Shown here one piece after another: positions 2,450 through 36,142 of a DNA stretch of 64,000 bases. Made by a program: the position numbers and the translations under genes. Positions within the stretch are counted from its first letter, which is position 1. The number at the start of each line of letters is the position of its first letter. Origin of the DNA: Megasphaera sp. MJR8396C (GTDB lineage: Bacteria > Bacillota > Negativicutes > Veillonellales > Megasphaeraceae); the NCBI RefSeq assembly GCF_001546855.1, contig NZ_KQ958206.1, positions 2,104 to 66,103 of the forward strand, read 5' to 3'. Under the pieces are notes generated by a model that searched no databases, was not told where the DNA came from, and saw only the letters and a list, made by a program, of their open reading frames with translations.

Positions 2450-3490
2450 TTAGTCGATGGAGATCAACTGATACTTGTCATTGCCCATCTTTAATTTCCG
2501 CATGGCCGTCAACTGGTGCAGGCCGTGGCGGGATTCGATTCGTTCTACCAAATCGTGCTTATCTCTTTCCGGCTGGTCATAGACCCAATCGACGCTGGCT
2601 TGATCGATGGCCAGGATATCCGTCGAAGCCATCATGCCTAAATCGGGGATGACCGGTTTTGCAGCCGAAGTACCGGCGCAGTCGCAGTCGACAGACATAG
2701 AGCGCAGGACATTGAGGAAGACGATGTGTTTTCCGAAGTAGTCACAAATGGCTTTGCCGCAGTCGGCCATGTTTTCCATAAAGCCTTCTTCGAGGACCAT
2801 GTTGTCCGACCAGTCGGAACCGACGGGGACGCGGGATTCATGGAAGGCGTGGACCTGTCGTTTGCCTACCTGACCGTCGGCACAGCCGATGGCGATGTTT
2901 TTCAGCGAACCGCCGTAGCCGCCCATGGCATGGCCTTTAAAGTGGGTCAGGACGATCATGGAGTCATAATCGGTAATATTGCGGCCTAAGGATACTTCCG
3001 AAAAGTGCAGGCCGTTGCGGACGGGCATCATGACGTTGCCTTTTTCATCCAAGATGTCGACAGGGCAGAAATTCCAGCCATTGACCTCTAAGGTGCGGCG
3101 GTGTTTTTCTGTCGTATCGCGGTCGCCCGGGTAGAGCGTATTCGTTTCGACGATGCTGCTGTTAGGAACCTGGGCCTGGAAGGCTTTGACCATGTCGCGA
3201 GGCAGGATATAAGGGCCGTGTTGTTCACCTGTGTGGACCTTGATAGCCGTCTTGCCGTAAATGCCTTCATTGATCTTCTGGTACAATTTAATCAAGTGTT
3301 CGGCGTCGATATGCTTGGTGTAATAGACTTTGGCATAAGAGCCTGCCTGACCGGATTGAGCCGTCGTTTCCTGACTGCCTACGACCGGCGCCTGGGCCAT
3401 GGCCGGTAAGATATTGGCTTTTCCTAAAGCGACGCCGAGAGCTGCACTGCCGGCTAATTTTAAAAAGCCGCGCCGAGTTATATTTTCCAT
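2450..3490 (-). CDS. Tat-exported DUF362 domain protein
   Basis: 346 residues. The N-terminus carries a textbook twin-arginine signal (TRRGFLKLAG, then a hydrophobic stretch and an Ala-rich cleavage region near residue 32), so it should be exported folded, probably with a cofactor. The rest matches the DUF362 family: SMIVLTHFKGHAMGGYGG, KNIAIGC and a C-terminal GMMASTDILAIDQASVD. DUF362 proteins often carry a ferredoxin domain; here no CxxCxxC cluster motif is present, although several cysteines (FCPVDI, DCDCAG) remain. The function of the family is not established. The start is ATG behind AGGAGG. It lies 166 bp downstream of a MerR gene on the same strand, which may control it. Confidence 0.85.
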   Translation of the reverse strand: MENITRRGFLKLAGSAALGVALGKANILPAMAQAPVVGSQETTAQSGQAGSYAKVYYTKHIDAEHLIKLYQKINEGIYGKTAIKVHTGEQHGPYILPRDMVKAFQAQVPNSSIVETNTLYPGDRDTTEKHRRTLEVNGWNFCPVDILDEKGNVMMPVRNGLHFSEVSLGRNITDYDSMIVLTHFKGHAMGGYGGSLKNIAIGCADGQVGKRQVHAFHESRVPVGSDWSDNMVLEEGFMENMADCGKAICDYFGKHIVFLNVLRSMSVDCDCAGTSAAKPVIPDLGMMASTDILAIDQASVDWVYDQPERDKHDLVERIESRHGLHQLTAMRKLKMGNDKYQLISID

Positions 3491-3656
3491 AATACGTAAC
3501 CTCCTGTGTGAATGATGTAACCGGCGTCAAAGCTTGAAGCTGCAATGGGAATCAGCACTCTTGCAGACATTTTGCAAAAGACATGGCGGCGTCGATTTTT
3601 GGTGTGAAATGTTTAAAATCGCCTGTTCTTCTTTTTTGGAAAAAGGCAGTCTATAA

Positions 3657-4010
3657 TTAGAATTTTCCTTCGTCGTACAATTTAATTTTCCAGTTCAAGT
3701 GGTCCAAGGCGTCTTGGATATCCTGTAAGTTGCTTTGGAGTTGTTGGCGTTCGTGGATTAAAATTTCCCGCCGCTCCTTGCGAGTGGCGTCACCTTGCTC
3801 GAAAAGCTCCATATAGCGCGTCAGGCCGGAAATAGAAACGTTAGCTGCCCGCATGCACTTGATAAAAGCGATGCTCTTGCAGTTTTCTTCACTATAATCG
3901 CGGACGCCGTTCTTATCGCGGGGCACATTGCGGATGAGCCCAATCTTTTCGTAGTAACGAAGCGTGTCCGGCGAGATTTGAAGTTGTTCACTTACATCTT
4001 TTATTTTCAA
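3657..4010 (-). CDS. MerR-family transcriptional regulator
   Basis: 117 residues from the proposed TTG start at 4010 (AAAGGAGGG ends 6 nt upstream). The longer open frame with ATG at 4034 is unlikely because that ATG overlaps the -10 box of the gene's own promoter. N-terminal winged helix (KIKDVSEQL, SPDTLRYYEKIGLI), then a region containing NCKSIAFIKCMRAA and an Arg/Gln-rich dimerisation coiled coil. It most resembles the short AdhR/NmlR-like MerR group that senses aldehydes or electrophiles; two cysteines in the middle could be the sensor, but this is inference. The nearest same-strand gene is the DUF362 gene. Its own promoter has MerR-type architecture (separate entry), so autoregulation is likely. 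Confidence 0.88.
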   Translation of the reverse strand: MKIKDVSEQLQISPDTLRYYEKIGLIRNVPRDKNGVRDYSEENCKSIAFIKCMRAANVSISGLTRYMELFEQGDATRKERREILIHERQQLQSNLQDIQDALDHLNWKIKLYDEGKF

Positions 4011-4032
4011 GGTAGTCCCTCCTTTGTAGTTC

Positions 4033-4063
4033 ATTATAACGATTGGAGTCGTCTCCAAGTCAA
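4033..4063 (-). promoter_or_regulatory. MerR-type promoter/operator with 19-bp spacer
   Basis: On the - strand: TTGACT (4063-4058), a 19-bp spacer, TATAAT (4038-4033). The spacer contains the perfect dyad TTGGAG-ACGA-CTCCAA (4058-4043). A 19-bp spacer filled by a dyad is the hallmark of promoters that MerR proteins twist into activity. Transcription would start near 4026, just upstream of the Shine-Dalgarno site. Confidence 0.88.
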
Positions 4064-4148
4064 GAGAAAAATAAAAATAATCAAAAGGACTTGCCAAGAT
4101 GGGGGAGATGCGTTATAATAATAAAGTCGCATGACAAATTCATATTGA

Positions 4149-4225
4149 GGGCGGTTAGCTCAGTTGGTTAGAGTATCTCGTTGACATCGAGGGGGTCGAT
4201 GGTTCGAATCCATTACCGCCCACCA
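4149..4225 (+). tRNA. tRNA-Val (anticodon GAC)
   Basis: 77 nt including encoded CCA. Acceptor stem GGGCGGT/ACCGCCC, D-arm TAGCTCAGTTGGTTAGAG, anticodon stem CTCG/CGAG with loop TTGACAT (anticodon GAC at 4183-4185), T-arm GGTTCGAATCC, discriminator A, CCA at 4223-4225. Confidence 0.97.
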
Positions 4226-4229
4226 AAGC

Positions 4230-4280
4230 AAACATATCCGAATGTGGTAGAAATGCCAGTTCGGATATGTTTATTTTTTT
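4230..4280 (+). terminator. Terminator after tRNA-Val
   Basis: 13-bp stem AAACATATCCGAA/TTCGGATATGTTT followed by a seven-T run, 5 nt after the tRNA. Confidence 0.92.
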
Positions 4281-4340
4281 GCCTTGACAAGGGTATCTCG
4301 ATTGCGCGGGGTGAAGATGAATGTCTATTCCTAAATGATA

Positions 4341-4370
4341 TTGGTAAAATTTTCACAAATAGTGTATTCT
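4341..4370 (+). promoter_or_regulatory. Promoter for the panB operon leader
   Basis: TTGGTA, 18-bp spacer, TATTCT. Moderate match; it would start a leader RNA of about 170 nt before the first gene. Confidence 0.5.
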
Positions 4371-4377
4371 GTAGATG

Positions 4378-4534
4378 TAACTGAGATTGGACGGAATCCG
4401 TGGGATCCGTACCGCATATTGTCTCGGTTGCGCATTTTATTAATTTCATAGCATGTCGCTTGGATCGAAAGACTGGGACGAATTTTGTAAACGTAGGCTT
4501 TTTGTGCGCATTCCCGGGAGGAATGCGCTTTTTT
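4378..4534 (+). promoter_or_regulatory. Structured 5' leader with attenuator, candidate pan-motif RNA
   Basis: Three elements are visible. First, an outer stem ACTGAGA (4380-4386)/TCTCGGT (4422-4428) enclosing an inner ACGGA/TCCGT stem that continues to GG/CC across a single bulged A. Second, a strong terminator GCGCATTCC/GGAATGCGC (4506-4528) with six T's. Third, the heptamer GCGCATT at 4430-4436, directly after the first stem, is identical to the terminator's 5' arm and could pair with its 3' arm instead, giving mutually exclusive folds. Such conditional termination ahead of pantothenate genes recalls the pan-motif RNA, a hairpin with bulged A residues. The assignment is a hypothesis. Confidence 0.55.
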
Positions 4535-4547
4535 GAGGGAGTACATC

Positions 4548-5414
4548 ATGCGTTTAGGGATTATTGGTGCCGGCAGAGTCGGCACTTCTTTTGTTTTAGC
4601 CATGCCTTCAGCTGTTGAGGGTATTCTTTGTTCCACAAAAGAACATACGACGCAGCGGGCGCAGTCCCTTAAGGTCAAGGCCTATACGGACGGGGCAGCC
4701 CTTCTTCGGAACTGTGATGTTCTGCTGCTGACGGTACGGGACGATGTGATCGGGAGTGTGGCCGCATCGCTGGCGGACTCGCTGACTGGCGCTGATCGGC
4801 GTGAGACCTGCATTCTTCACTGCAGCGGTGCCATGGACTTGTCTTCTCTTGAGCCGCTCTCGGCTTTGGGGTATTCTGTGGGCAGCCTTCATCCGCTGCA
4901 GAGCTTTGCCGCGCCGTCGGGAGATTTGCTGCGCCATATTTATATGGCTGTCGACGGCGATGATAGGGCCAAGGAAACGGCTCTGTTTCTCGTCAAGGCC
5001 TTGGACAGTAAACCTCTTTTTGTGCCGCAGGAAGAACGCGTCCTCTATCACGCAGCCGCCTGTTTTTGTTCCAATTACGTCGTGACGGCCGTTGCCTTGG
5101 GGCAGCGACTCATGCGGCGCTGGACGGAGACTGACGGAGAGGCAGCACAGTCCTTGATGCCCCTCCTCAAAGGGACGGTGGGAAACCTTGAACGTACCGA
5201 TCGCTGGCAAAAGGCCCTGACCGGCCCTGTGTCGCGCGGCGATACGGGGACCGTGGCCAAACACCTGGACGCCATGCCGAAAGAGCTGGTCGGGCCTTAC
5301 TGTGCCTTTAGCCGGGCTGCCGGAGAACTCTCTTTAGAAAACGGAACGATTACGGAAAACCAGTATGAAGTACTGAAACAAATCCTTGCGATGGCGGAAG
5401 GAGTTCACGAATGA
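4548..5414 (+). CDS. Rossmann-fold and DUF2520 oxidoreductase, possible ketopantoate reductase
   Basis: 288 residues from ATG 4548 (GAGGGAG upstream; the longer frame starts with TTG inside the terminator tail). The N-terminal dinucleotide-binding fold starts at residue 2 (LGIIGAGRVGTSF, a GxGxxG motif), followed by the helical DUF2520 half (SLHPLQSF, HAAACFCSNY). The family resembles pyrroline-5-carboxylate and ketopantoate reductases. The gene overlaps panB by ATGA, so the two are translationally coupled. As panB makes ketopantoate, the next substrate for a reductase, this is a good candidate for the PanG type of ketopantoate reductase. That role is inferred from family fold and context only. 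Confidence 0.82.
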   Translation: MRLGIIGAGRVGTSFVLAMPSAVEGILCSTKEHTTQRAQSLKVKAYTDGAALLRNCDVLLLTVRDDVIGSVAASLADSLTGADRRETCILHCSGAMDLSSLEPLSALGYSVGSLHPLQSFAAPSGDLLRHIYMAVDGDDRAKETALFLVKALDSKPLFVPQEERVLYHAAACFCSNYVVTAVALGQRLMRRWTETDGEAAQSLMPLLKGTVGNLERTDRWQKALTGPVSRGDTGTVAKHLDAMPKELVGPYCAFSRAAGELSLENGTITENQYEVLKQILAMAEGVHE

Positions 5415-6250
5415 ACAAGAAAGTAACGAATCTGACCATCAAGAAAATGAAGGGGGAAGGGACTCCCATTTCCATGATTACGGCCTATGACTACGTCATG
5501 GCGCAGAATGTCGACGAAGCCGGGATCGACATGATCCTCGTCGGCGATTCTCTGGGCAACGTCGTCATGGGCCATACGTCGACGCTTCCGGTAACCATGG
5601 ACGATATGGTTCACCATACGGCAGCTGTCGTCCGTGGGACGAAACGGGCCTTGGTCGTCGCCGACATGCCCTTCATGAGCTATCAGGAAAGTGTCTGCCA
5701 GGCCCTTCACAATGCCGGACGTTTGATGAAGGAAACGGGCTGCGATGCCGTAAAATTAGAAGGTGGCGCCAGTGTCTGTGAAGCCGTTAAAGCCATGACG
5801 ACGGCCGGGATTCCTGTCGTCGGCCATATTGGCCTGACACCGCAGTCGGTCCATCAGCTCGGCGGCTACCGCGTACAGGGGAAAAATGCCGAAACGGCCA
5901 AACGCCTGATCCAGGAAGCCCTGGCTTTGGAAGAAGCCGGTGCCTTTGCCATCGTCTTGGAATGCGTCCCGACGGATATTGCCGCTGAAATCACGAAAGC
6001 CTTGAAGCAGGCGGCTACCATCGGCATCGGGGCCGGTAATGTCTGCGACGGTCAGGTTCTGGTCTGCACGGACCTCCTCGGTATGAGCGGCGGTTTCCGT
6101 CCGAAATTCGTCAAGACCTATGCCAACCTTCATCAGACCATCGTCGATGCTGTAAGTCAGTATATCAAAGACGTCCAGGATCGGAGCTTCCCCAATGAGG
6201 AATACAGTTTCGATGTCGACCCGGAAGTCGTTAAGGCCATGAAAGAGTAG
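5411..6250 (+). CDS. panB: 3-methyl-2-oxobutanoate hydroxymethyltransferase
   Basis: 279 residues, usual length. It transfers a hydroxymethyl group from methylenetetrahydrofolate to alpha-ketoisovalerate to give ketopantoate, the first committed step of pantothenate/CoA synthesis in the cytosol. Family motifs are clear: SMITAYDYVMAQ near the N-terminus, DMILVGDSLGNVVMGH with the Mg-binding Asp, KLEGG and VVGHIGLTPQSVHQLGGY. The start overlaps the stop of the upstream oxidoreductase (ATGA). No panC or panD is adjacent. A strong terminator follows. Confidence 0.97.
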   Translation: MNKKVTNLTIKKMKGEGTPISMITAYDYVMAQNVDEAGIDMILVGDSLGNVVMGHTSTLPVTMDDMVHHTAAVVRGTKRALVVADMPFMSYQESVCQALHNAGRLMKETGCDAVKLEGGASVCEAVKAMTTAGIPVVGHIGLTPQSVHQLGGYRVQGKNAETAKRLIQEALALEEAGAFAIVLECVPTDIAAEITKALKQAATIGIGAGNVCDGQVLVCTDLLGMSGGFRPKFVKTYANLHQTIVDAVSQYIKDVQDRSFPNEEYSFDVDPEVVKAMKE

Positions 6251-6273
6251 GCTGATTTTTCGAATCGCCCGTA

Positions 6274-6305
6274 GAGCCCTGTCTTTTTGGACAGGGCTTT
6301 TTTTC
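6274..6305 (+). terminator. Terminator of the panB operon
   Basis: Stem AGCCCTGTC/GACAGGGCT with a 6-nt loop, then eight T's. Confidence 0.93.
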
Positions 6306-6373
6306 GTATTTTCAGGGTGGCTCGAAGGCCCTTGCGATACTTGCATAAAGCGGCTTTGTGCCGCCGATTGCGA

Positions 6374-6402
6374 TTGACTTGCGTATGTAATCATTGTACA
6401 AT
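6374..6402 (+). promoter_or_regulatory. Promoter upstream of the transketolase leader
   Basis: TTGACT, 17-bp spacer, TACAAT; predicted start near 6409, about 125 nt before the transketolase ATG. Confidence 0.82.
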
Positions 6403-6408
6403 TAATGA

Positions 6409-6496
6409 AAGAAAAGGAAGCGAATTACAGAGGTCGTTTGTCCAAACGCACGCGTACCGCCTGCCCGATGAAAGGGGAGTACTGCGGCGTTTTTTT
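6409..6496 (+). ncRNA. Structured leader or short RNA ending in a terminator-like hairpin
   Basis: Between the promoter and the transketolase start the RNA can form a small hairpin (CGTTTG/CAAACG, 6435-6448) and then a larger interrupted stem (6450-6490: ACG and CCGC pairing with GCGG and CGT, an inner CCC/GGG closing loop GATGAAA) followed directly by seven T's. This is either an attenuated leader or an 88-nt independent RNA. It does not match a riboswitch class I can name. Confidence 0.5.
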
Positions 6497-6533
6497 CTTA
6501 ATCGACCTGTATATTATTAGGAGGCTATGCTGA

Positions 6534-7352
6534 ATGAGGCATGATCTACGCGACGTCTGTATGCAGATACGGCGGGATACCGTGCGGTCTATTTACCGTG
6601 CCGGGTCGGGCCACCCGGGCAGCTCCTTATCGGCTGTCGAACTTATGGCCACCCTCTATTTTACCGATATATTTACGTGTTTCCCCGACAGGCCTCATGC
6701 GCCGGAACGGGATCGCTTTGTCTTGTCGAAGGGCCATGCGGCGCCGGCTTTTTACAGCACCTTGGCTCATAAGGGCTATTTCCCCTTGGAATGGCTCGAT
6801 ACGCTGCGGACGGTCGGAAGTCCTCTTCAGGGCCATCCCAATCTTCAGAAGCTGCCCTGTCTGGACTGTGCCGTCGGTTCTTTAGGGCAGGGGCCGTCCA
6901 TTGCCAACGGCATGGCTTTGGCCTTGAAGCTGAAAGGAAAGCCTCAGCAGGTATTCTGTCTCATCGGTGACGGGGAACAGCAGGAAGGACAGGTCTGGGA
7001 AGCGGCAGCTTTTGCCGGCCAACACCACCTGGACAACGTCTGTCTCATCGTCGACTGCAATGGATTACAGCTCGTCGATTCCATGGCTGATATTAAGGAC
7101 ATGGAACCCATGGATGCCAAGTGGGAAAGCTTTGGCTGGCATGTCCTCCGCGTCGACGGTCACGATACGGATGCCCTCTATGATGCCTATGGGGCGGCGA
7201 AAGCCCGTTCTGATAAACCGACGGTCATCTTGGCCAAGACCGTCAAGGGCAAGGGCGTTTCTTATATGGAAAACCAGGCCGAATGGCACGGTGCTGCGCC
7301 CGATGAAGCCCAGTACGCTCAGGCCATGAAAGAATTGGAGGTGCGGTCATGA
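6534..7352 (+). CDS. Transketolase, N-terminal (TPP-binding) subunit
   Basis: 272 residues, the usual size for the split transketolase of Firmicutes. Contains SGHPGSSLSAVELMATLYF, the thiamine-diphosphate motif GDGEQQEGQVWEAA, and DCNGLQLVD. It moves two-carbon ketol units in the non-oxidative pentose phosphate pathway together with the next gene product. ATG 6534 follows AGGAGG with 9-nt spacing; another ATG at 6527 opens only a five-codon frame. The next gene starts inside its stop codon (ATGA). Confidence 0.95.
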   Translation: MRHDLRDVCMQIRRDTVRSIYRAGSGHPGSSLSAVELMATLYFTDIFTCFPDRPHAPERDRFVLSKGHAAPAFYSTLAHKGYFPLEWLDTLRTVGSPLQGHPNLQKLPCLDCAVGSLGQGPSIANGMALALKLKGKPQQVFCLIGDGEQQEGQVWEAAAFAGQHHLDNVCLIVDCNGLQLVDSMADIKDMEPMDAKWESFGWHVLRVDGHDTDALYDAYGAAKARSDKPTVILAKTVKGKGVSYMENQAEWHGAAPDEAQYAQAMKELEVRS

Positions 7353-14657: not shown

Positions 14658-15911
14658 ATGAATTTTGATGAACAAGCCATGAATATCCGCCGAGGCAAGC
14701 AAGGCATTCTTGAAACCTTCCCGCGGGCGGTTTTAAAGACTACCGATGATTTGAGTGTGCTCTACACGCCGGGCGTAGCTCAGCCGTGCCGGGAAATCAC
14801 CAAAGATCCGGACCTGTCCTTTGACCTGACCTGCCGGGGAAATATGATTGCCGTCGTATCCGATGGGACCCGCGTCCTCGGTTTGGGCGACATCGGTCCG
14901 GAAGCGGCCATGCCGGTCATGGAAGGGAAATCCATCCTGTTCAAGGTATTCGGCGGCGTCAATGCCGTTCCCATCTGCCTGGACACCAAGGATCCCCAAG
15001 CGTTCATCGAAACGGTCAAGCGCCTGCAGCCGTCTTTTGCCGGCATCAACTTGGAAGACATTTCGTCGCCGAAATGCTATGAAATCGAAGAAACGCTGAA
15101 GCGGGAGATGGACATCCCCGTCTTCCATGACGACCAGCACGGCACGGCCATCGCTGCCTTAGCTGGCGTCATCGGAGCCCTGCGCTTCGTCAAAAAAGAC
15201 CTCAAGACGGCTCGTATCGTCATCAACGGTGCCGGTGCTGCCGGCGCTTCCATCGGCCGCCTCTTGGTCCGGGCCGGTGCTGAAGACGTCACTATGGTCG
15301 ACCGTCCGGGCATCCTCTACGCCGGTATGGAAGGCCTCAATGCCGTCCAGGCGAAACTGGCCGAAGTGACCAACCGCTCCCGGAAGCAGGGGACCTTGGC
15401 CGATGCTGTCAAAGGCGCGGACCTGCTCCTCGGTGTTTCGGCACCTCATATTTTCACGAAAGAGCTCATCGAATCCATGGCTGACGATGCCATCGTCTTT
15501 GCTATGGCCAACCCCATTCCCGAAACGGACTATGCTTCGGCTAAAGCTGCCGGTGCCAAAGTCGTCGGGACTGGTCGTTCCGATGCGCCCAACCAGATCA
15601 ACAATGTCATGGTCTTCCCGGGCATCTTCCGCGGTGCTATGGCCGTCCGGGCCCGCAGCATCAACGAGGATATGAAACTGGCCGCAGCCTATGCTATCGC
15701 GTCCTTAGTTTCTGACGACGAACTGGCTGAAGACCATGTCATCCCTAACGCTTTTGACGAACGAGTAGCTCCGGCCGTCGCAGCAGCCGTCGCCAAAGCG
15801 GCCATGGATAGCGGTGTCGCCCGCATTACTCGCGACCCTGAAGACATCCGCCGGGAAGCAGCAGAAACGATTGCCAAGTTCCGCGCCGTGTCTGAATCGG
15901 TCAACGCATAA
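14658..15911 (+). CDS. Malic enzyme (oxaloacetate-decarboxylating malate dehydrogenase)
   Basis: 417 residues, the short two-domain type without a fused phosphotransacetylase. It decarboxylates malate to pyruvate with reduction of NAD(P). Motifs: LYTPGVAQPCREI (catalytic Tyr), VFHDDQHGTAIAALAG (metal-binding Asp), Rossmann INGAGAAGASIGRLL, FAMANPIPE, and GRSDAPNQINNV. Preceded by GAGGAG; probably in one transcript with the aldehyde dehydrogenase. Cofactor preference cannot be decided here. Confidence 0.95.
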   Translation: MNFDEQAMNIRRGKQGILETFPRAVLKTTDDLSVLYTPGVAQPCREITKDPDLSFDLTCRGNMIAVVSDGTRVLGLGDIGPEAAMPVMEGKSILFKVFGGVNAVPICLDTKDPQAFIETVKRLQPSFAGINLEDISSPKCYEIEETLKREMDIPVFHDDQHGTAIAALAGVIGALRFVKKDLKTARIVINGAGAAGASIGRLLVRAGAEDVTMVDRPGILYAGMEGLNAVQAKLAEVTNRSRKQGTLADAVKGADLLLGVSAPHIFTKELIESMADDAIVFAMANPIPETDYASAKAAGAKVVGTGRSDAPNQINNVMVFPGIFRGAMAVRARSINEDMKLAAAYAIASLVSDDELAEDHVIPNAFDERVAPAVAAAVAKAAMDSGVARITRDPEDIRREAAETIAKFRAVSESVNA

Positions 15912-28221: not shown

Positions 28222-28935
28222 TTTTGAAATATAGTGTCGTGCCTTATCGACGGAGACGACGTCAATCCAGCCGAAGGGACGCAGGACGTGACAGATATAG
28301 AAGAGGGTGTTGTAGTCGAGAATGAGGTTTTTCAGTCCCTTGAGGGTCCGCTTACTGCCTTCGACACTGGCGTAGCCTGCAAGGGCGGCATTGAGGAGAG
28401 ACGTATCGGACCATTCTTCACGAAAACAGCTGTGGATGAAGAGAAAAAGGTCGAGGACGGCAGCCGGTGCCTGGATAAATTTCTTTTCATTTTCCCAATC
28501 TAGGAGGGTAACGGAATCATTTTCACGGTGATAGGCAATATCACGCAGGGCCGGACGGCCGTGATGCAGGCCCAGGACGTGGAGGCGAGCTAGCCCTTCG
28601 CCGGCTTTGGTAAAGGCATGGAGGCGCACGTCGGCGTAATCCTCTTCTTTGGCGACGCGCTGCAAGGTTTTGCCTACATTTTCCATGACGAAGAAGTCTT
28701 CGTCGAGAAGGACGATTTTTGGAGCCAAGGGCAGGCGGGAGTTGACGGTCATGATTTTATAGGCTTCACACCAAAAAGATGCCGAGGGATTCTGTTTGGC
28801 AAAGGCGTTGCGGCCATTGGACATACGGCGTTTGATAAAGTAGTTCATTCCATCGAAAGAAAGGGGGATAACCCGTTTGTCCGGGTTTTCGGCGATTGCT
28901 TCCTGAACCTTTTGGAGAAGAGACGGATTGAACAA
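28216..28935 (-). CDS. Protein-kinase-fold protein (lipopolysaccharide-kinase-like)
   Basis: 239 residues from the proposed TTG 28935, which has AAAGG about 10 nt upstream; GTG at 28944 would sit directly against that site. N-lobe Lys candidate in YFIKRR; catalytic-loop-like LHHGRPALRDIAYH and LLDWENEK, where the Asp could bind Mg, recall the WaaP/RIO/aminoglycoside-kinase fold. The substrate is unknown; a lipid A-core or other envelope sugar is plausible in a diderm, but nothing nearby proves it. It is convergent with dprA. Confidence 0.75.
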   Translation of the reverse strand: MFNPSLLQKVQEAIAENPDKRVIPLSFDGMNYFIKRRMSNGRNAFAKQNPSASFWCEAYKIMTVNSRLPLAPKIVLLDEDFFVMENVGKTLQRVAKEEDYADVRLHAFTKAGEGLARLHVLGLHHGRPALRDIAYHRENDSVTLLDWENEKKFIQAPAAVLDLFLFIHSCFREEWSDTSLLNAALAGYASVEGSKRTLKGLKNLILDYNTLFYICHVLRPFGWIDVVSVDKARHYISKL

Positions 28936-29241
28936 GAGTGTCACACCTTTCTATTAGTAAGACATAGTTTCATTATTTACCGGGTTTATACACAGGGTAT
29001 GGTTTGATTATAGCAAATTTAGGGAGTAAAAGAAACGGAATCCTGTTTAAAATGTCGGTAAAATCAAGGTTTTCAGCATGCAGAGAGGTACTTCGAGGAT
29101 GACGAAGTGCCTCTCTTAATATACTTTTATAGACCGAAAAGTTATAATGAAATTGATAAACGATATTGACATGTGAAGAAATACACTTTATAATAAAAAC
29201 TGCAAAGTGGTATAAATTATTCAAAAAGGGAGATGTGTCGT
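28936..29241. other. Intergenic region with two promoters and a hairpin
   Basis: 306 bp without a gene. A - strand -10 box (TATAAT at 29012-29007) with a poor -35 serves the kinase-like gene. A perfect-arm hairpin AGAGAGGTACTTCG/CGAAGTGCCTCTCT (29082-29116; one G-T pair) has no T-run. A consensus + strand promoter follows (29166-29194). The hairpin's role is not clear. Confidence 0.6.
29166..29194 (+). promoter_or_regulatory. Consensus promoter ahead of the small membrane protein
   Basis: Perfect TTGACA, 17-bp spacer, perfect TATAAT; start predicted near 29201. Confidence 0.93.
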
Positions 29242-29460
29242 ATGTTTCAGAATACGGATTTTTGGATTGGTTTAGGTATCGGTGTCGTCGCAGGTGTCTT
29301 TGGCTACAAATTGATGTCCGAACGTGAACAGCAGCTTCTTGCTATGCAGCAGCCCGCAGCCGGCGCTTTGACGGCCTCCGTTCCGCTCGCTGAACTGCAG
29401 CGCCAGAAGGAAGAATTAGAAGACATGATTGCAGCCCAGGAAGCCGCACAGGCAAAATAA
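29242..29460 (+). CDS. 72-residue single-pass membrane protein with coiled-coil tail
   Basis: ATG 29242 follows AAAGGGAGA at 9-nt spacing; an ATG at 29233 is too close to that site. One transmembrane helix (about residues 8-25, FWIGLGIGVVAGVFGYKLM), then a cytosolic Gln/Glu/Ala-rich tail (LAELQRQKEELEDMIAAQEA) likely to form a coiled coil. No family recognised. It has a very strong promoter, and a terminator separates it from the HMA-like/ATPase genes, which could still be reached by read-through. In outline it resembles the small membrane partners of some P-type metal ATPases, but it lacks their metal-binding tail. Confidence 0.8.
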   Translation: MFQNTDFWIGLGIGVVAGVFGYKLMSEREQQLLAMQQPAAGALTASVPLAELQRQKEELEDMIAAQEAAQAK

Positions 29461-29477
29461 TTACAGACTGTAAAAAG

Positions 29478-29511
29478 AAGACTGTTGCCTTTCGGTGACG
29501 GTCTTTTTTAA
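29478..29511 (+). terminator. Terminator-like hairpin after the small membrane protein
   Basis: AAGAC..TGCC / GGTGACGGTCTT imperfect stem followed by six T's; probably partial termination before the HMA-like operon. Confidence 0.65.
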
Positions 29512-29540
29512 AGGGTAAAAAGAGAGAAAGGGCCGCGTTT

Positions 29541-29825
29541 ATGTTTATTCCGACGTCGAAATGGGACTTCATCATTCGTTCTGTCTCCATCTCGTCTTAC
29601 TTACCGGGCCGCATACGCCTGCACAGTAAGAAACTCATTGGCAATGCTGAACTGGGCCGCAAGGTCTACGCTTACATTGCCAGCTATAAAGAAATCGATA
29701 AGGTCGATATCAACGTCCTCACGGGTTCCGTCTTGATAACCTATCGGCCGCAGCTGCTGCGGACCAACGGCGAACTCGTTCGGGTAGAAAACTATATCAG
29801 GACCCATGCTGAAAGGAGAGGGTAA
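29541..29825 (+). CDS. HMA-like domain protein without CxxC (copy 1)
   Basis: 94 residues. After a short head, residues 15-90 read as one ferredoxin-like beta-alpha-beta fold: SISSYLPGRIRLHS, then a helix with GNAELGRKVYAYI, DKVDINVLTGSVLITY, and a final helix. This is the pattern of heavy-metal-associated domains but with no CxxC metal site. The same LPGRxR...GNA.L...I..N..TGS.L..Y pattern recurs in the next gene. The gene ends 2 bp before that gene, and RBS GAGAGAAAGG precedes the ATG. It is part of a three-gene unit with the ATPase. Confidence 0.8.
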   Translation: MFIPTSKWDFIIRSVSISSYLPGRIRLHSKKLIGNAELGRKVYAYIASYKEIDKVDINVLTGSVLITYRPQLLRTNGELVRVENYIRTHAERRG

Positions 29826-29827
29826 TC

Positions 29828-30457
29828 ATGTCATACGCCTCAGGTTTTATGGTGGGCACGTCGATCGGAAAAGCCGTTTACGACTTGTTCCATAAGAAAA
29901 GAGGAGGCAGCGCCTTTGCCGGTGCGCCTTCAATCCAAGGAGAAAAGAAGGCCGATGTGCCTCGCTTTGCCTGCGTTTCCGCACTCCCGGGCCGTCGCCG
30001 TTACCGGGCTGCGTCCCTTCTCGGCAATGCAGGGTTGGCCGAATTCATGGAAAAGAAAATCGGTGCCATGACCGGTATCAGCTCCATCGAGGTCAACACC
30101 GCTACGGGAAGTATTTTGGTCTATGCTGTAAGTGAAGCTGCGCTGGATCTTTTGGAAGATTTCTTCCGTTCCCGCCTCTTTCCCAGTGCTGTGGAAGGCA
30201 TTATCAACGCCGTCTACGATGCTGACCGGAGCGCTTCTCGCCCGCCGGCAGAACCGACGTACCTCAAGGTTGCCCGGGCGACGGGGGATTTCTTTAATCA
30301 AGTCGTTCGAAAGAAATCGAAGCATCTCCTCGATTTGACGACCTTGGCGGCCTTATTCCTGGTCATCCGCGGCCTTCGCAAAACGGTCTTCATGGGCCAG
30401 CGCCCGTCGGGACCGCAGATGCTGTGGTGGGCCCTGTCACTCTTGAGGAGGGAATAG
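29828..30457 (+). CDS. HMA-like domain protein with C-terminal membrane segment (copy 2)
   Basis: 209 residues. N-terminal Gly/Ala-rich segment (YASGFMVGTSIGKAV), then a second HMA-like module at residues 45-115 (VSALPGRRRYRA, LLGNAGLAEFMEKK, IEVNTATGSILVY), again without CxxC. The C-terminal part is basic and moderately hydrophobic (LLDLTTLAALFLVIRGL, about residues 168-184), a possible membrane-associated helix. The ATPase ATG lies 2 bp after its stop. Confidence 0.78.
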   Translation: MSYASGFMVGTSIGKAVYDLFHKKRGGSAFAGAPSIQGEKKADVPRFACVSALPGRRRYRAASLLGNAGLAEFMEKKIGAMTGISSIEVNTATGSILVYAVSEAALDLLEDFFRSRLFPSAVEGIINAVYDADRSASRPPAEPTYLKVARATGDFFNQVVRKKSKHLLDLTTLAALFLVIRGLRKTVFMGQRPSGPQMLWWALSLLRRE

Positions 30458-30459
30458 CT

Positions 30460-32553
30460 ATGTACTTGTGCAATACGATTTTTCTACACAGCGAAATTCC
30501 CAGCCGCATGCGGCCTATCCTGAGTGTCAAGCTGCGTCAGGTCCGGGATATCGTCTCGGCCGTTGTCGAAGAAAAAAAGGTCACCGTCTATTATCGTAAG
30601 ACCCTGGACTTGCGGGCTTTGAAGCTGTTTATCCGCGCTTTTGAAGAAAAGTACGGCCGCAAGAAAGAAGAAAAATTAGAAGACATGGACGTTGCCACTT
30701 ACCGTCGGGAAGCCATCATCTCCGTCGGCGGCTTCATCGCCATGAACATTCTGCGCAAGGTCAATCCGGAATTTTACGGATCCATGCTCTTGTTTCGTCG
30801 ACTCTTTACCTTATACATCGCGCGTCGCTATATTAAAAGCGGTCTCCTCAGCCTGGTAAAAGATCATCGAGCCAACGCCGATACCTTGACGGCAACGGCT
30901 GTCGCTGCCTCGGTCCTGTCCGGGAAACCTGAATCGAGCCTGACCCTCCTGGCCTTGTCGAACGGGGCTGAAATGATGACCGAATACGCCGCTGAACGTG
31001 CCCGTCGCCAGATTTCCGGCCTCTTAAAGCTCGATCAGCGCGACGTATGGCTCATCGAGGGCGGTAGAGAACACAAGGTTCCTGTCGAATCGCTGAAGCG
31101 GGGAGACCTCATCGCCGTCCATCTCGGTGAAAAGATCTGCGTCGATGGTACTGTCGTCGATGGCAATGCCGCCGTCAATCAGGCCTCTATTACGGGGGAA
31201 TCGAATCCGGCTATCAAGCAGGAAAAGTCATCGGTCTATGCCGGCAGCGTCATTGAAGCGGGGGATCTCGTCATCCGAGTCGAAAAAGTCGGTGCCGATA
31301 CGTCCTTGGCCCAGATCATTCACCTCGTCGAAGAAGCCCAGACCCGTCGGGCGCCGGTTCAGAATTTTGCTGATAAGATGGCCAACCTCTTGGTTCCGAT
31401 TTCCTTTATCGGCGCGGCCATCGTCTATGGGGCGACTAAGGATTGGCAACGGGTACTCAACCTCTTGTTCATCGACTTCTCGTGCGGCCTGAAACTGTCG
31501 ACGGCAACGGCCATTTCGGCAGCCATCGGCGTTGCCGCCCGGAAAGGGATTCTCATCAAAGGCGGCAACTACATCGAAAACCTGGCCGATATCGACACCG
31601 TCGTTCTCGATAAGACGGGGACCATCACCATGGGCGTTCCTCAAATCGACCACATCGAAACGGTCCAGGGGGTCAGCGATAAGGAAATGATTCTCTTGGC
31701 GGCGTCGGCAGAAATGCACTCCGTCCATCCGCTGGCCGTAGCCGTTCAGAAATACGTCAATGCCAAGGGCTGGCAGACACCACCGCACACATCTTCGGAA
31801 ACGATCGTTGCCCGGGGCATGAAGGCCGTCGTTCCGCCCTTTGAAAGCTATGAAGGCGGCGACATCCTCGTCGGCAGCCGCCGGTTCATGACCGAATCCA
31901 ATGTCGAAGGTATGCCGACCGTCGATAATAAGACCTGGGGCAAGAACCTCTTGTACATCGCCCGTGACGGCCAGTACCTCGGCTTCCTCACCATTCAGGA
32001 TCCGATCCGACCGGGCATGAAGAAGACCTTGAACCGCATGCGCCGCTTAGGCATCGACGAAGTCGTCATGCTTACCGGCGACTCGAAAGACGTGGCCGCA
32101 GAAGTTGCCCAGGATATGGATATCGACTCGTACTACGCTGAAATCCTGCCGGAAGAAAAAGCCAACTACGTCATGAAGATGCAAAAAAGAGGCAACGTCA
32201 TGATGGTCGGCGACGGCATCAACGATGCACCGGCCCTGGCATTTTCCGATATCGGCGTCAGCCTCGGCGGCAACAAGACCGACATCGCAGCCGAATCGGC
32301 AGCCATTACCATCCGTTCAGAAGATCCAGCTAAATTGTATGATGCCCTCCATATCGGACGAGAAACGATGCGGGCCATCAATCAGAACTTCACGGCGACC
32401 ATTGCCGTCAACTCGGCCGCTATGCTCCTCGGGGCCTTAGGGAAAATCAGCCCCTTATGGGCCGCTGTTATCCACAACACGGCAACCTTAGCCGTCGTAT
32501 TGAACAGCGTTCGCATTCTCGGGCCATCCGTGCCGAAGGTACGAAGAGCCTGA
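30460..32553 (+). CDS. P1B-type heavy-metal ATPase with non-canonical SCGLKL motif
   Basis: 697 residues from ATG 30460 (GAGGAGGG upstream; the longer frame lies inside the preceding gene). The N-terminus holds a third, decayed HMA-like module (SEIPSRMRPIL, VEEKKVTVYY). The catalytic core is complete: A-domain ITGES (about 242), phosphorylation DKTGT (Asp about 384), HP motif MHSVHPLA and GDGINDAPAL. The metal-selecting helix reads SCGLKL (Cys342) in place of the CPC/SPC motif, so the transported ion cannot be predicted from standard P1B classes. The terminal membrane pair has NSAAMLLG and HNTATLAVVLNS. Inference: export of a transition metal, perhaps Fe/Mn/Zn given the feo operon next door. 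Confidence 0.9.
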   Translation: MYLCNTIFLHSEIPSRMRPILSVKLRQVRDIVSAVVEEKKVTVYYRKTLDLRALKLFIRAFEEKYGRKKEEKLEDMDVATYRREAIISVGGFIAMNILRKVNPEFYGSMLLFRRLFTLYIARRYIKSGLLSLVKDHRANADTLTATAVAASVLSGKPESSLTLLALSNGAEMMTEYAAERARRQISGLLKLDQRDVWLIEGGREHKVPVESLKRGDLIAVHLGEKICVDGTVVDGNAAVNQASITGESNPAIKQEKSSVYAGSVIEAGDLVIRVEKVGADTSLAQIIHLVEEAQTRRAPVQNFADKMANLLVPISFIGAAIVYGATKDWQRVLNLLFIDFSCGLKLSTATAISAAIGVAARKGILIKGGNYIENLADIDTVVLDKTGTITMGVPQIDHIETVQGVSDKEMILLAASAEMHSVHPLAVAVQKYVNAKGWQTPPHTSSETIVARGMKAVVPPFESYEGGDILVGSRRFMTESNVEGMPTVDNKTWGKNLLYIARDGQYLGFLTIQDPIRPGMKKTLNRMRRLGIDEVVMLTGDSKDVAAEVAQDMDIDSYYAEILPEEKANYVMKMQKRGNVMMVGDGINDAPALAFSDIGVSLGGNKTDIAAESAAITIRSEDPAKLYDALHIGRETMRAINQNFTATIAVNSAAMLLGALGKISPLWAAVIHNTATLAVVLNSVRILGPSVPKVRRA

Positions 32554-32648
32554 AATAAGAAGTCGTTATCGATTTTAGAAAACGATTCTTAAATGATACG
32601 AAAAATCACATATTCAAAAGAATGCATCAACCTGCATTCTGTAAAGAT

Positions 32649-32681
32649 AAGAAGCGTATCTCGGTACGCTTCTTTCTTTTT
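32649..32681 (+). terminator. Terminator of the ATPase operon
   Basis: AAGAAGCGTA/TACGCTTCTT stem with a 5-nt loop and a T-rich tail. A smaller AGAATGCA/TGCATTCT hairpin lies just upstream. Confidence 0.88.
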
Positions 32682-32706
32682 ATAAATGAATTTCAATAGC
32701 AAAGTG

Positions 32707-32735
32707 TTGACAGAGTATGTGAAAAAATATATAAT
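32707..32735 (+). promoter_or_regulatory. Consensus promoter of the feo operon
   Basis: Perfect TTGACA, 17-bp spacer, perfect TATAAT; start near 32742. Confidence 0.93.
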
Positions 32736-32741
32736 ATGTTT

Positions 32742-32764
32742 GGTAATGAAATATATTATCATTA
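32742..32764 (+). promoter_or_regulatory. Fur-like operator at the feo transcription start
   Basis: GGTAATGAAATATATTATCATTA, an AT-rich inverted repeat (TAATGA / TCATTA arms) carrying the ATTATC hexamer typical of Fur boxes. It covers the predicted start site, where a repressor would block transcription when iron is plentiful. Fur itself is not in the window. Confidence 0.6.
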
Positions 32765-32814
32765 GTTGAAGGGATGTGTGAGTATTATTTACGGAGCTGA
32801 AAGGAGCGATGTAA

Positions 32815-33108
32815 ATGAGTGTCGTCATCGTAGGTGGAAATGATTGCATGGTGTGCCGTTATAAACGTATTTGCAAAGAATTCGATTATAAGGCCAAAGT
32901 TTTTACACAGGTGCCCAGTGATTTTAAGTCAAAAATCGGGTCGCCTGATTTGGTGGTGTTGTTTACCAGTACCGTGAGTCACAGTATGGTCCGCTGCGCT
33001 CTGAAGGAAGCCCAGCGTAAGAACGTGGATATCGTCCGTTCCCATACCAGCAGCTCAAGCGCACTGAAAACTATACTAGCAGCCAGGACGGAGGAAGCCG
33101 CCGTCTAG
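32815..33108 (+). CDS. DUF2325 domain protein
   Basis: 97 residues. SVVIVGGNDCMVCRYKRIC at the N-terminus gives a Cys11-x2-Cys14-x5-Cys20 cluster, followed by LVVLFTSTVSHSMVRCALKEA and HTSSSSALKTIL, a Rossmann-like fold. The family is of unknown function and is often found next to feo genes. The cysteines could bind iron or sense redox state; this is inference. First gene after the feo promoter and Fur-like box, 21 bp before feoA. Confidence 0.85.
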   Translation: MSVVIVGGNDCMVCRYKRICKEFDYKAKVFTQVPSDFKSKIGSPDLVVLFTSTVSHSMVRCALKEAQRKNVDIVRSHTSSSSALKTILAARTEEAAV

Positions 33109-33129
33109 GCCAGCAAAGGGGAGTTAGTC

Positions 33130-33366
33130 ATGAAGATTGTTTCGTTAGCTGACATGAAAGTCGGTCAGTCGGGTATTGTCGAAGCCCTTGAAGGTCGAGG
33201 AAACATCCAGCATCGCCTGGTCGACATGGGCGTCGTCAAAGGTTCTCGTATTTCTGTTTTTAAAAAGGCCCCTCTCGGAGATCCGGTCGAAGTCAAGATC
33301 AAAGGCTGTGCCATGGCCTTGCGCATGAACGAAGCGGCTATGATTTCTGTAGCCGTGGATCAATAA
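33130..33366 (+). CDS. feoA: Ferrous iron transport protein A
   Basis: 78 residues, a single SH3-like FeoA domain (RLVDMGVVKGSRISVFKKAPLGDPVEVKI split over residues 29-58). Small cytosolic partner of FeoB. Spacing to feoB is 19 bp. Confidence 0.95.
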   Translation: MKIVSLADMKVGQSGIVEALEGRGNIQHRLVDMGVVKGSRISVFKKAPLGDPVEVKIKGCAMALRMNEAAMISVAVDQ

Positions 33367-33385
33367 AAGGGGGTATTTAGTAGTC

Positions 33386-35770
33386 ATGGAAAATGCAGGA
33401 AAAATTAAGGTCGCCCTCGCCGGCAACCCTAACTGCGGGAAAACGACGATTTTTAACAACATTACAGGTTCAAAACAGCACGTCGGCAACTATCCCGGCG
33501 TCACTGTCGAAAAGAAGGAAGGCCATCGCACCTTTAATGGCAAAGACTTGCTCTTCGTCGACTTGCCGGGCACGTACAGCTTGACGGCACGGTCGCTGGA
33601 CGAAGTCGTTGCCCGTAACGTTATCATCAATGAAAAGCCAGATATCATCGTCAACGTTCTCGATGCATCCAATCTCGAACGTAACTTGTATTTGGCTGCT
33701 CAGCTCGTCGAATTAGGACGGCCGATGGTCATCGCCCTGAATATGATGGATATTGCCGAACGAATGGGCATTAAGATCGACATCGAAAAGTTAGGCCGTC
33801 AGATCGGTGCCGTCGTCGTTCCTTTAGTCGGCAGCAAGAACTTAGGCACGAAAGAACTGCTCGACGCTATTTCCAGCATGGAAGCGAAACACCTGGTCAA
33901 TGCTGAAGTCGATTACGGTGCAGACGTCGAACCGGCCATTGCCAATTTGACCGATGCTATCGAAAAGATCGACGTCATCAACTATCCTGTTCGTTGGTTA
34001 GCGGTTAAGCTCCTTGAAAACGACTCCGATGCCGTTGCCAAGGTCAAAGCCATCGACGGAACGGAACATATCTTGGAACTGGCGGCTTCGCTCCGCAATT
34101 CCCTGACTGAAAAAATCGATTTAGACTTCTATTTTGCTCAATGCCGCTACCAATTCGCGACTGACGTATTTAATAAATCTATCATCAATGTCGGTACGAG
34201 CGATACCTTGTCTGATAAAATCGACCGCGTCTTGACCCACCGTATCTTGGGGATTCCTATTTTCCTGGGTCTCATGTGGCTCATGTTTACCGTCGTCATC
34301 GACCTCGGTGCTTATCCTCAGGATTGGCTCGACCAAGGGTTTGGCATGCTTGGCGATTGGCTGAGTACGGTTGTTGCAGATGAACAGCTGAGATCCCTTC
34401 TCGTCGACGGCGTTATCGGCGGTGTCGGTTCGGTCCTCAGTTTCGTACCGCTTATCATCCTCTTGTATTTCTTTATCAGTTTGCTCGAAGATACAGGCTA
34501 TATGGCCCGCGCCGCCTTCCTCATCGACCGCGCTATGCGTGCCCTTGGCCTTCACGGGAAGTCGTTCATTCCGATGATTCTCGGCTTTGGCTGTAACGTG
34601 CCGGGCATCATGGCTGCACGTACGCTTGATAATGAAAAGGACCGCCTGGTCACTATCCTGGCGTGCCCCTTCATGAGCTGCGGCGCCCGTCTTCCTGTTT
34701 ATACCCTGCTCATCGGCGCCTTCTTCGGCGCTTCCGGTTACGGTGGTACGGTTCTCTTCGGCGTCTACCTCTTAGGTATCATCGTCGCCGTTGCCGTCGC
34801 CTTGGTTCTGCGTCACACGACCTTTAAAGGCGAACAGGAACCGTTCGTTATGGAAATGCCGCCGTACCACATTCCGACCCTGAAAGGCGTCCTCATGCAC
34901 ATGTGGGAACGCAGCGTACTGTACCTTAAAAAGGCCGGTACCTTCATCCTCGGCGCTTCGATCATCGTTTGGTTCCTCACGGCATATCCGATGGATGTCC
35001 AGTATTCTCAGGACTTCGATGCTGCGAAAGACCAGGTCAGCGCTCAGATGGAACAGAAACAGGCTGATATCCTTCAGACCTATGGTCTCACGTCCATCGA
35101 TCAGAACAGCGAATTGAACGGCATGTACGAATCCATGATTGCCGCTGCCGACGCTGCTGCTGAAGAAGAAGACAGCGAAGAAGAAGACGTTGAAAGCGTC
35201 CAGCAGGCCGAAGCTGTGGAAGAAAAACCGCAGTATCCCGATGCCTTTGCTGATCTCGAAGCTTCGAACCCGACGGTTTATGCGCAGGCTCTTCCGTTAT
35301 TCGACGCCAAAGTTGCTGCTGACGATGCTACCAGCGAACTCGACAGCCAGCAGAATGCTGAAAAGATTTCCCAGTCCTATGCAGCCCGCTTAGGCCACTT
35401 CATCGAACCGGTCATCGCACCGCTCGGTTATGACTGGAAGATCGGCGTCGCCATCGTTGCCTGCACGGCCGCCAAAGAAGTCATGGTTTCGACCTTGGCT
35501 ACGATTTACAGCGTCCAGGCTGACGATACCCATGAAGCTAACCTCATCACCTTCCTCGCTGATGACCCGAACTTCAACCCGGCCGTTGCCCTGTCGCTGA
35601 TGGTCTTCACCTTGCTCTACATGCCTTGCGTCGCTGCGATGGCTGTCATCAAGCGTGAAACGGGTTCCTGGAAGATGCTCCTTGCCAGCGATGCTATGTG
35701 CCTCGTCTTGGCATATGTCTTGGCTTACGTTACCTATCAGTTAGCCCTTATGGCCGGCCTCGGTGCATAA
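33386..35770 (+). CDS. feoB: Ferrous iron transporter FeoB
   Basis: 794 residues. N-terminal G domain: G1 GNPNCGKTT, DLPGTYSL (G3), NMMD (G4), then the helical GDI-like region and two gate repeats in the membrane part (FGCNVPGIMAARTL, CPFMSCGARLPVYTLL). Between about residues 540 and 670, ahead of FIEPVIAPLGYDW, it carries a long hydrophilic insertion with a strongly acidic run (AEEEDSEEEDVES) that is longer than in the usual protein. It imports Fe2+ under anaerobic conditions. Confidence 0.96.
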   Translation: MENAGKIKVALAGNPNCGKTTIFNNITGSKQHVGNYPGVTVEKKEGHRTFNGKDLLFVDLPGTYSLTARSLDEVVARNVIINEKPDIIVNVLDASNLERNLYLAAQLVELGRPMVIALNMMDIAERMGIKIDIEKLGRQIGAVVVPLVGSKNLGTKELLDAISSMEAKHLVNAEVDYGADVEPAIANLTDAIEKIDVINYPVRWLAVKLLENDSDAVAKVKAIDGTEHILELAASLRNSLTEKIDLDFYFAQCRYQFATDVFNKSIINVGTSDTLSDKIDRVLTHRILGIPIFLGLMWLMFTVVIDLGAYPQDWLDQGFGMLGDWLSTVVADEQLRSLLVDGVIGGVGSVLSFVPLIILLYFFISLLEDTGYMARAAFLIDRAMRALGLHGKSFIPMILGFGCNVPGIMAARTLDNEKDRLVTILACPFMSCGARLPVYTLLIGAFFGASGYGGTVLFGVYLLGIIVAVAVALVLRHTTFKGEQEPFVMEMPPYHIPTLKGVLMHMWERSVLYLKKAGTFILGASIIVWFLTAYPMDVQYSQDFDAAKDQVSAQMEQKQADILQTYGLTSIDQNSELNGMYESMIAAADAAAEEEDSEEEDVESVQQAEAVEEKPQYPDAFADLEASNPTVYAQALPLFDAKVAADDATSELDSQQNAEKISQSYAARLGHFIEPVIAPLGYDWKIGVAIVACTAAKEVMVSTLATIYSVQADDTHEANLITFLADDPNFNPAVALSLMVFTLLYMPCVAAMAVIKRETGSWKMLLASDAMCLVLAYVLAYVTYQLALMAGLGA

Positions 35771-35803
35771 GCAGTTTGATCCTATCGAAAGGGGGGTTCT
35801 GGT

Positions 35804-35995
35804 ATGAGTCCTGCAACGATTATTGTCGCTATCGTCGTCATCATCGCCGTAGCGTACTTCATCCGTCACGTCCGTGGTCTGTTCAACGGAACGGCCGGTT
35901 GCTGCGGTGGCGGCGGCTGCTCGGGCAGCTGCTCCGCAAGCGGACAGTCGAAGACGGGGGATAAATCTAAACTCCCGCCTTGCTGCCAAAAGTAA
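35804..35995 (+). CDS. FeoB-associated Cys-rich membrane protein
   Basis: 63 residues. One transmembrane helix (IIVAIVVIIAVAYFI) and a Gly/Cys-rich tail (GCCGGGGCSGSCSASG, ending PPCCQK). Small proteins of this layout regularly follow feoB in Firmicutes, where a FeoC-like role or Fe-S sensing has been suggested but not shown. GGGGGG RBS 7 nt before ATG. Last gene of the operon. Confidence 0.88.
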   Translation: MSPATIIVAIVVIIAVAYFIRHVRGLFNGTAGCCGGGGCSGSCSASGQSKTGDKSKLPPCCQK

Positions 35996-36012
35996 ATAGC
36001 AGATAACAGCAC

Positions 36013-36052
36013 TGAACCTCCATCGGTCACTTTGGCCGGTGGAGGTTCTTTT
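36013..36052 (+). terminator. Terminator of the feo operon
   Basis: GAACCTCCA/TGGAGGTTC stem (36014-36048) followed by TTTT. Confidence 0.88.
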
Positions 36053-36087
36053 GCATGAAAGAAACAAATTTGCTGTACATCATAAGA

Positions 36088-36142
36088 CGCCTCACCATCG
36101 AGTCCTTTACTGAGATATGAAGAATTCGGCGGTGAGGCGTTT
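36088..36142 (-). terminator. Hairpin downstream of the UvrA-like gene
   Basis: ACGCCTCACC/GGTGAGGCGT arms separated by 34 nt, directly after the UvrA-like stop on the - strand. The T-run is short on either side, so strength is uncertain. Confidence 0.6.

Follow-up and report, generated by a model that had tools for sequence, protein, structure and literature searches.

Grant et al. 2022 reportedly described a six-gene fez operon in the ferrosome-making bacteria Rhodopseudomonas palustris and Shewanella putrefaciens, with FezB as its P1B-6-ATPase. Ferrosomes are iron stores enclosed by a membrane, and FezB is the pump that fills them. Here, we compare such operons with a four-gene unit (positions 29242 to 32553) found in a 64,000-nucleotide stretch of the Megasphaera sp. 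MJR8396C genome (NZ_KQ958206.1, positions 2,104 to 66,103; hereafter, the window). The unit encodes a small membrane protein, two HMA_2 proteins, and a P1B-type ATPase, and we conclude that it is probably a divergent ferrosome-type (Fez-like) iron-handling module. In Clostridioides difficile, ferrosomes require FezA and FezB, both of which are repressed by Fur (PMC12574912). Two further kinds of described system bear on the comparison. DUF6110 proteins are encoded with P1B6 pumps, of which an HN pair in transmembrane segment 6 (TM6) is a feature (PMC9374683), and they resemble PacL proteins, such as PacL1 (DUF1490), which scaffolds the P1B6-like pump CtpC (PMC9374683, PMC13043812).

Like the fez operons of R. 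palustris, S. putrefaciens, Desulfovibrio magneticus, and C. difficile, the unit joins a small transmembrane (TM) protein and HMA_2 proteins with a PGR motif in one operon, lies in an iron context, and encodes a pump that has D-x-S-C in TM4 and HN in TM6 and that most likely belongs to the same deeper clade. It departs from them in reading SCGLKLSTA where their pumps read SCALKL[SA]TP and in forming a separate clade, most likely the sister of theirs. Moreover, it comprises four genes only, arranged in another order (the small TM gene opens the operon here but directly precedes the pump gene in fez operons), and it lacks a FezC-like part. In Rhodoblastus and Azospirillum, the pump gene is the last of six, which include genes for HMA_2 proteins and, immediately before the pump, a YtxH-like small TM protein; six-gene operons with SCALKL pumps also occur in Magnetospirillum.

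The DUF6110-P1B6 pairs of Bacillota resemble the unit in that a small membrane protein and a P1B6 pump are encoded beside feoAB. For instance, a genome of the same order (G020; locus L080, 4726-10341) carries feoA, feoB, a FeoB-associated gene, a DUF6110 gene, and a P1B6 pump gene (SCALKL) in one direction, the DUF6110 type replacing the window type beside feo. Unlike the unit, such a pair does without separate HMA_2 genes, and the small protein of the unit is not a DUF6110 protein. In mycobacterial PacL/CtpC efflux platforms, too, the gene for a P1B6-like pump goes together with one for a small, scaffold-like membrane protein, and that pump shares the HN of TM6. However, CtpC has CPC in TM4 and is required for zinc resistance, whereas the window pump is of a non-CPC type.

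The ATPase and its phylogenetic placement

The initial annotation of this DNA had singled out an ATPase with SCGLKL where classical P1B pumps have CPC, and comparison with Escherichia coli CopA and ZntA, which have CPC at this site, bears this out: TM4 of the ATPase is DFSCGLKLSTAT, reading DFSCGLKL. Relative to the D-x-S-C-A-L-K-L of FezB, the D, S, C, L, K, and L are retained, while Ala has become Gly and a later Pro has become Ala. The HN pair in TM6 is H672-N673, which is invariant across the FezB sequences, and the P1B catalytic core is present as well (DKTGT, TGES, HP, and GDGINDAP). An AlphaFold2 model of the ATPase (predicted local distance difference test [pLDDT] score, 86.5) has an N-terminal ferredoxin-like domain at residues 5 to 66, for which no Pfam HMA hit was reached, and the best fold matches of the model are to solved P1B pumps. 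The IPSRMR at residues 13 to 18 is a degenerate form of P-x-R-x-R, a motif that neither the sister Negativicutes family nor genome G262 retains; its loss from the sister family led us to reject it as a fixed feature of the pump.

A search of named genomes with D-x-S-C-[AG]-L-K-L retrieved FezB-type pumps from Shewanella, Vibrio, Ferrimonas, Rhodopseudomonas, Rhodoblastus, Azospirillum, Magnetospirillum, Helicobacter, and others. In a maximum-likelihood tree of 53 pumps, the 16 of the window type form a single clade (support, 100/99), and the SCALKL pumps from six-gene operons and from DUF6110 pairs together form another (100/100). The tree places these two clades as sisters (94/89), with CPC pumps that have an HMA_2 N terminus falling outside both (100/99), and a grouping of FezB with the CPC/HMA_2 pumps was rejected by the approximately unbiased (AU) test (p-AU, 0.008). 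The window clade is most likely, if not fully securely, the sister of the P1B-6/FezB pumps, and the TM4 signature D-x-[SAI]-C-[GA]-[LI]-[KR]-L also favors kinship with FezB. The CPC pumps with an HMA_2-type N terminus (PGRVR and no CxxC; L052 to L055, from G361, G294, G178, and G148) constitute a clade of their own (100/100), which is likely a P1B6-like (CtpC-like) group.

Within the genus, 14 of 15 genomes, including this one, encode the ATPase at 75 to 96% identity; the genome that lacks it is 78% complete. SCGLKL is strict across the ATPases of the genus and holds without exception in the ten genomes sampled from a second Negativicutes family. Elsewhere among the 398 genomes of the phylum that were searched, G262, G144, and G212 have pumps with SCGLKL or ACGLKL that are 61 to 70% identical over the TM4 region. 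Below these there is a clear gap, the remaining pumps of the phylum being less than 50% identical.

HMA_2 proteins, small membrane protein, and two-histidine hairpin

The two proteins encoded directly ahead of the ATPase score 45.2 and 84 bits against the Pfam HMA_2 family (PF19991), for which the cutoff is 30. HMA_2 protein 1 has LPGRIR at residues 21 to 26 and reads SYLPGRIRL...GNAEL...NVLTGSVLITY, HMA_2 protein 2 has LPGRRR at residues 53 to 58, and the two have GNA.L, N..TGS.L, and Y in common. The initial annotation had described an (L/I)P(G/S)RxR motif at these positions and in the ATPase N terminus, the elements shared by the first two copies, and the absence of CxxC from all three; each of these points was found to be correct, and the profile search that it had suggested did match both small proteins to an HMA-type family. 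By contrast, its description of the three as cysteine free applies to HMA_2 protein 1 but not to HMA_2 protein 2, which has one Cys (FACVS), or to the ATPase N terminus, where Cys4 is present. We regard the motif pattern as beyond chance, because both proteins pass the HMA_2 cutoff and because relatives keep both the gene order and the motif, with the separate HMA_2 proteins mostly retaining PGR. Furthermore, profile comparison matches HMA_2 protein 1 to the HMA_2 proteins of fez-type operons at 97.6%.

Structural modeling agrees with an HMA-like fold, the lack of which would have refuted the initial annotation. In the AlphaFold2 model of HMA_2 protein 2, residues 48 to 114 adopt a confident beta-alpha-beta-beta-alpha, ferredoxin-like arrangement (pLDDT, ~95), after which come helices at residues 117 to 136, 144 to 188, and 195 to 208, with the C-terminal helices being hydrophobic. 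A structure search with this model recovered classical HMA domains at Z scores of ~6 to 6.6 over ~62 residues; other ferredoxin-like folds tie with these, and so the fold by itself is no proof of membership in the HMA family.

Classical HMA domains (PF00403) have a CxxC metal site, whereas the HMA_2 proteins here have none. Lacking it, they would be structural or docking/regulatory parts, and their most conserved residues, P-G-R-x-R, N, and S/Y, favor an interaction or docking surface over a metal carrier. A role as metallochaperones that pass metal to the pump via noncysteine ligands would fit either account of the unit as a whole that is weighed below, and the ferredoxin-like HMA fold and the constant occurrence of HMA_2 genes with the pump speak for it. 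Nevertheless, we consider such a role improbable, given that there is neither a CxxC nor a conserved Cys/His cluster and that the residues under the strongest conservation look like an interaction surface.

The small membrane protein consists of a single Gly-rich TM segment and a charged helix, with the terminus ELQRQKEELEDMIAAQ. It belongs to no Pfam family, with neither a DUF1490 nor a DUF6110 domain detected by Pfam, and has no NCBIfam match above the cutoff. Comparison by hhalign matched it at 92.5% to the product of the gene immediately 5' of FezB in six-gene fez-type operons (controls, ≤1.3%), a result with which a motif-free, position-only hmmsearch agrees, while its profile match to DUF6110 is weak (39.6%). 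In each of the 23 Negativicutes loci that were surveyed, an ortholog is encoded upstream of HMA_2. The small membrane protein is thus a candidate FezA/YtxH-like scaffold. Another genome of the genus, G001, has a second mini-cluster (L191, minus strand, 15552-15758 and 14954-15466, or 4243-5047 of the reverse complement) in which an extra copy of the small membrane protein accompanies an HMA_2 protein bearing a FezC-like two-histidine hairpin. DUF3793-like and flavodoxin genes diverge from this mini-cluster, which has no pump of its own, the ATPase nearby being of the CPC type.

FezC, the ferrosome cytochrome, is DUF4405-like and binds heme (PMC10979944). An N-terminal two-helix membrane hairpin with the pattern H-x(13-14)-H is present on an HMA_2 protein in the second Negativicutes family, G262, and G001, where it is fused to HMA_2 protein 1 or to an extra copy (L067, L069, L201, L203, L204, L206, L207, and L078). 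In the fez-type operons of alphaproteobacteria, the same hairpin is C-terminal on an HMA_2 protein, with profile matches of 96.7% and 94.6%, and it recurs in Campylobacterota in a small protein after FezB, which there has a weak DUF4405 match below the Pfam cutoff. Fused to HMA_2, this hairpin is possibly a half-cytochrome of the cluster. The genome to which the window belongs lost the two-histidine hairpin or never had it.

Gene order, regulation, and iron context

The neighborhood survey, which covered regions of ≤20 kb, found the order small TM-HMA_2-HMA_2-ATPase in 23 of 23 Negativicutes loci; the association with this pump type, whose absence from relatives would have refuted the initial annotation, is strictly conserved. 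A rearranged, five-gene set occurs in G262 and G144, which represent two further Bacillota families, on Priestia megaterium plasmids, and in Fusobacterium vincentii. In this set, the small TM gene comes last, and an additional PGR-type or HMA_2 protein is encoded after the pump. The cluster on one P. megaterium plasmid (L096) spans 3232-7079, and L092, L093, L097, and L099 are also plasmid-borne pump clusters. Plasmid-borne clusters of the window type or fez type come from Priestia, Arcobacter, Azospirillum, Vibrio, and Cereibacter, and this location makes them transferable between bacteria. The features of the locus itself are listed in Table 1.

Table 1. Features of the four-gene unit and the neighboring feo genes (window coordinates)
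Feature	Position	Strand	Details
Cluster promoter, sigma-70 consensus	29166-29194	+	TTGACA-17-TATAAT; 12/12 match
Small membrane gene	29242-29460	+	72 amino acids from ATG 29242 (alternative ATG 29233)
Terminator-like hairpin	29474-29509	+	Gap between small membrane gene and HMA_2 gene 1
HMA_2 protein 1	29541-29825	+	94 amino acids, no Cys; Pfam PF19991, E value 1.2e-11
HMA_2 protein 2	29828-30457	+	209 amino acids; Pfam PF19991, E value 1.4e-23, over 8-153/154
P1B-type ATPase	30460-32553	+	697 amino acids, ATG 30460, stop 32553; TIGR01525, E value 1.8e-156
Intrinsic-terminator-like hairpin	32649-32674	+	Closes the four-gene unit
Second perfect consensus promoter	32707-32735	+	Ahead of DUF2325-feo
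DUF2325 gene	32815-33108	+	Between ATPase and feoA; Pfam PF10087, E value 2.2e-32
feoA	33130-33366	+	FeoA PF04023, E value 9.4e-21
feoB	33386-35770	+	From translation
Cys-rich FeoB-associated small protein	35804-35995	+	

As had been annotated, the small membrane gene has its own consensus promoter, and TTGACA/TATAAT-like elements are similarly placed in most relatives in the genus. In some genus members (L193, L194, and L200), an inverted repeat, TTCTCAA...TTGAGAA, lies over the −35/−10 region ahead of the small membrane gene and may be an operator for some regulator. An Rfam scan of 28900-36100 matched no family.

The hairpin that follows the small membrane gene has a 16-bp stem and a U-run, with a folding energy of −22.4 kcal/mol and a z score of −2.4. 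Its exact sequence is unique in the genome, and hairpins that differ in sequence are found in the same place and with the same shape in 22 of 24 equivalent gaps (L191 to L210, L069, and L078). Such conservation suggests partial termination and unequal dosage within the operon, by which the small protein would be made in excess over the pump.

The initial annotation had placed the feo iron importer after the unit; feoAB does lie downstream, although the DUF2325 gene intervenes before feoA. Within the genus, feo adjoins the four-gene unit in 6 of 14 loci. Other arrangements with adjacent feo are seen in G262, in G283, and, in the case of the related DUF6110-pump pair, in G020. Because feo is found beside such units in at least four separate arrangements, iron is likely the theme of the unit. 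Flavodoxin, an iron-starvation protein, is encoded next to the cluster in G203, in divergent orientation, and next to the second small TM/HMA_2 pair in G001. A Fur-box-like sequence, TGAAATATATTATCA (11/14), occurs 3' of the second promoter, upstream of DUF2325-feo. Ferritin-family genes occur in this genome and commonly in its relatives, and for that reason we rejected the notion that these cells need ferrosomes for want of ferritin.

Two side observations concern the neighboring genes. A DUF2325 or DUF2325-like gene is near window-type or fez-type clusters in three lineages, namely, in the window, on the Arcobacter plasmid L092 (1613-1942), and in G144 (L068, 226-495). Also, the C-terminal half of the window's FeoB contains an acidic insert of low complexity, AAAEEEDSEEEDVESVQQAEAVEEKPQ.

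Competing readings and implications

As we infer it, the ATPase would use ATP to move Fe(II) from the cytosol via a site made up of D-x-S-C in TM4 and H-N in TM6. The small single-TM protein, present in excess, would organize the membrane around the pump, and the two membrane-associated HMA_2 proteins would be arranged around the pump as structural or docking/regulatory parts. The outcome would be a ferrosome-like iron-store vesicle, which we prefer, or else a pump platform, buffering the iron that Feo imports. Since its closest kin are found in P1B-6/FezB pumps and fez-type operons, the unit is no less likely to load an iron store inside the cell than simply to export iron. The initial annotation had envisaged a metal-export platform that balances Fe2+ import; its pump with noncarrier, HMA-like partners and its link to Fe2+ import remain reasonable, but the kinship with P1B-6/FezB pumps and with fez operons had been missed.

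Several observations weigh against a Fez-like module. The genus loci other than the 6 noted above are without adjacent feo, no consistent Fur box was found upstream of the cluster in the window and its relatives, and a FezC-like part is absent from the window cluster and from the rest of the genome. With respect to the pump, the window clade stands beside FezB and not within it, and a grouping of the window type with the CPC/HMA_2 pumps was not rejected (p-AU, 0.18). The FezB references in the tree are same-genus orthologs (from Rhodopseudomonas and Shewanella), not experimentally proven FezB sequences. The HN in TM6 is also seen in some CPC pumps and is thus nonspecific, and P1B6-like pumps include the zinc exporter CtpC, which has a CPC motif (PMC9374683). 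Finally, the window has no DUF6110 partner.

Some of these points would suit a pump for Zn, Mn, Ni, or Co that has feo as a neighbor by chance. Most loci have no adjacent feo, the cluster promoter has no Fur box, and the grouping with CtpC-like CPC/HMA_2 pumps survived the AU test. Even so, the TM4 pattern D-x-S-C-x-L-K-L is common to FezB-type pumps and is not that of Zn or Cu pumps, and with feo adjacent in several independent arrangements and flavodoxin in others, we think a metal other than iron very improbable. A different possibility is a plasma membrane platform for Fe(II) efflux, with no organelle, in which the small protein clusters the pump in foci in the manner of PacL and CtpC and excess iron from Feo is exported. 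The scaffolding of CtpC by PacL1 and the finding of PacL-like DUF6110 proteins with P1B6 pumps provide a precedent (PMC9374683, PMC13043812), the small membrane protein has the PacL-type plan of one TM segment and a charged helix, and the cells already have ferritin-family genes. We nevertheless judge this reading rather unlikely, as evidenced by the weak match of the small protein to DUF6110 in comparison with its match to the fez-operon gene (39.6% versus 92.5%) and by the HMA_2 chain, which fez-type operons have and the published efflux platforms considered do not.

Building on the preferred reading of a Fez-like module, we tentatively propose that the SCG-type pumps could mark a third lineage of iron-organelle machinery, distributed among Negativicutes, other Bacillota, Fusobacterium, and mobile Priestia plasmids. 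Such a lineage might form its own membrane-bounded store from an excess scaffold and a metal-free HMA_2 set, fused in some lineages to a half-cytochrome.

Ferrosomes have been shown in few bacteria, and a review raises the question of whether other gut pathogens or commensals possess them (PMC12574912). The cluster allows this question to be tested in Negativicutes, which are common anaerobes of the gut and rumen, and in Fusobacterium. Its diverged pump clade can also be used to map the determinants of Fe(II) selectivity in P1B-6-type pumps. Moreover, the comparison singles out the HMA_2 proteins as conserved pump partners that lack a metal-binding CxxC, and the hairpin behind the small membrane gene hints at dosage control within the operon.

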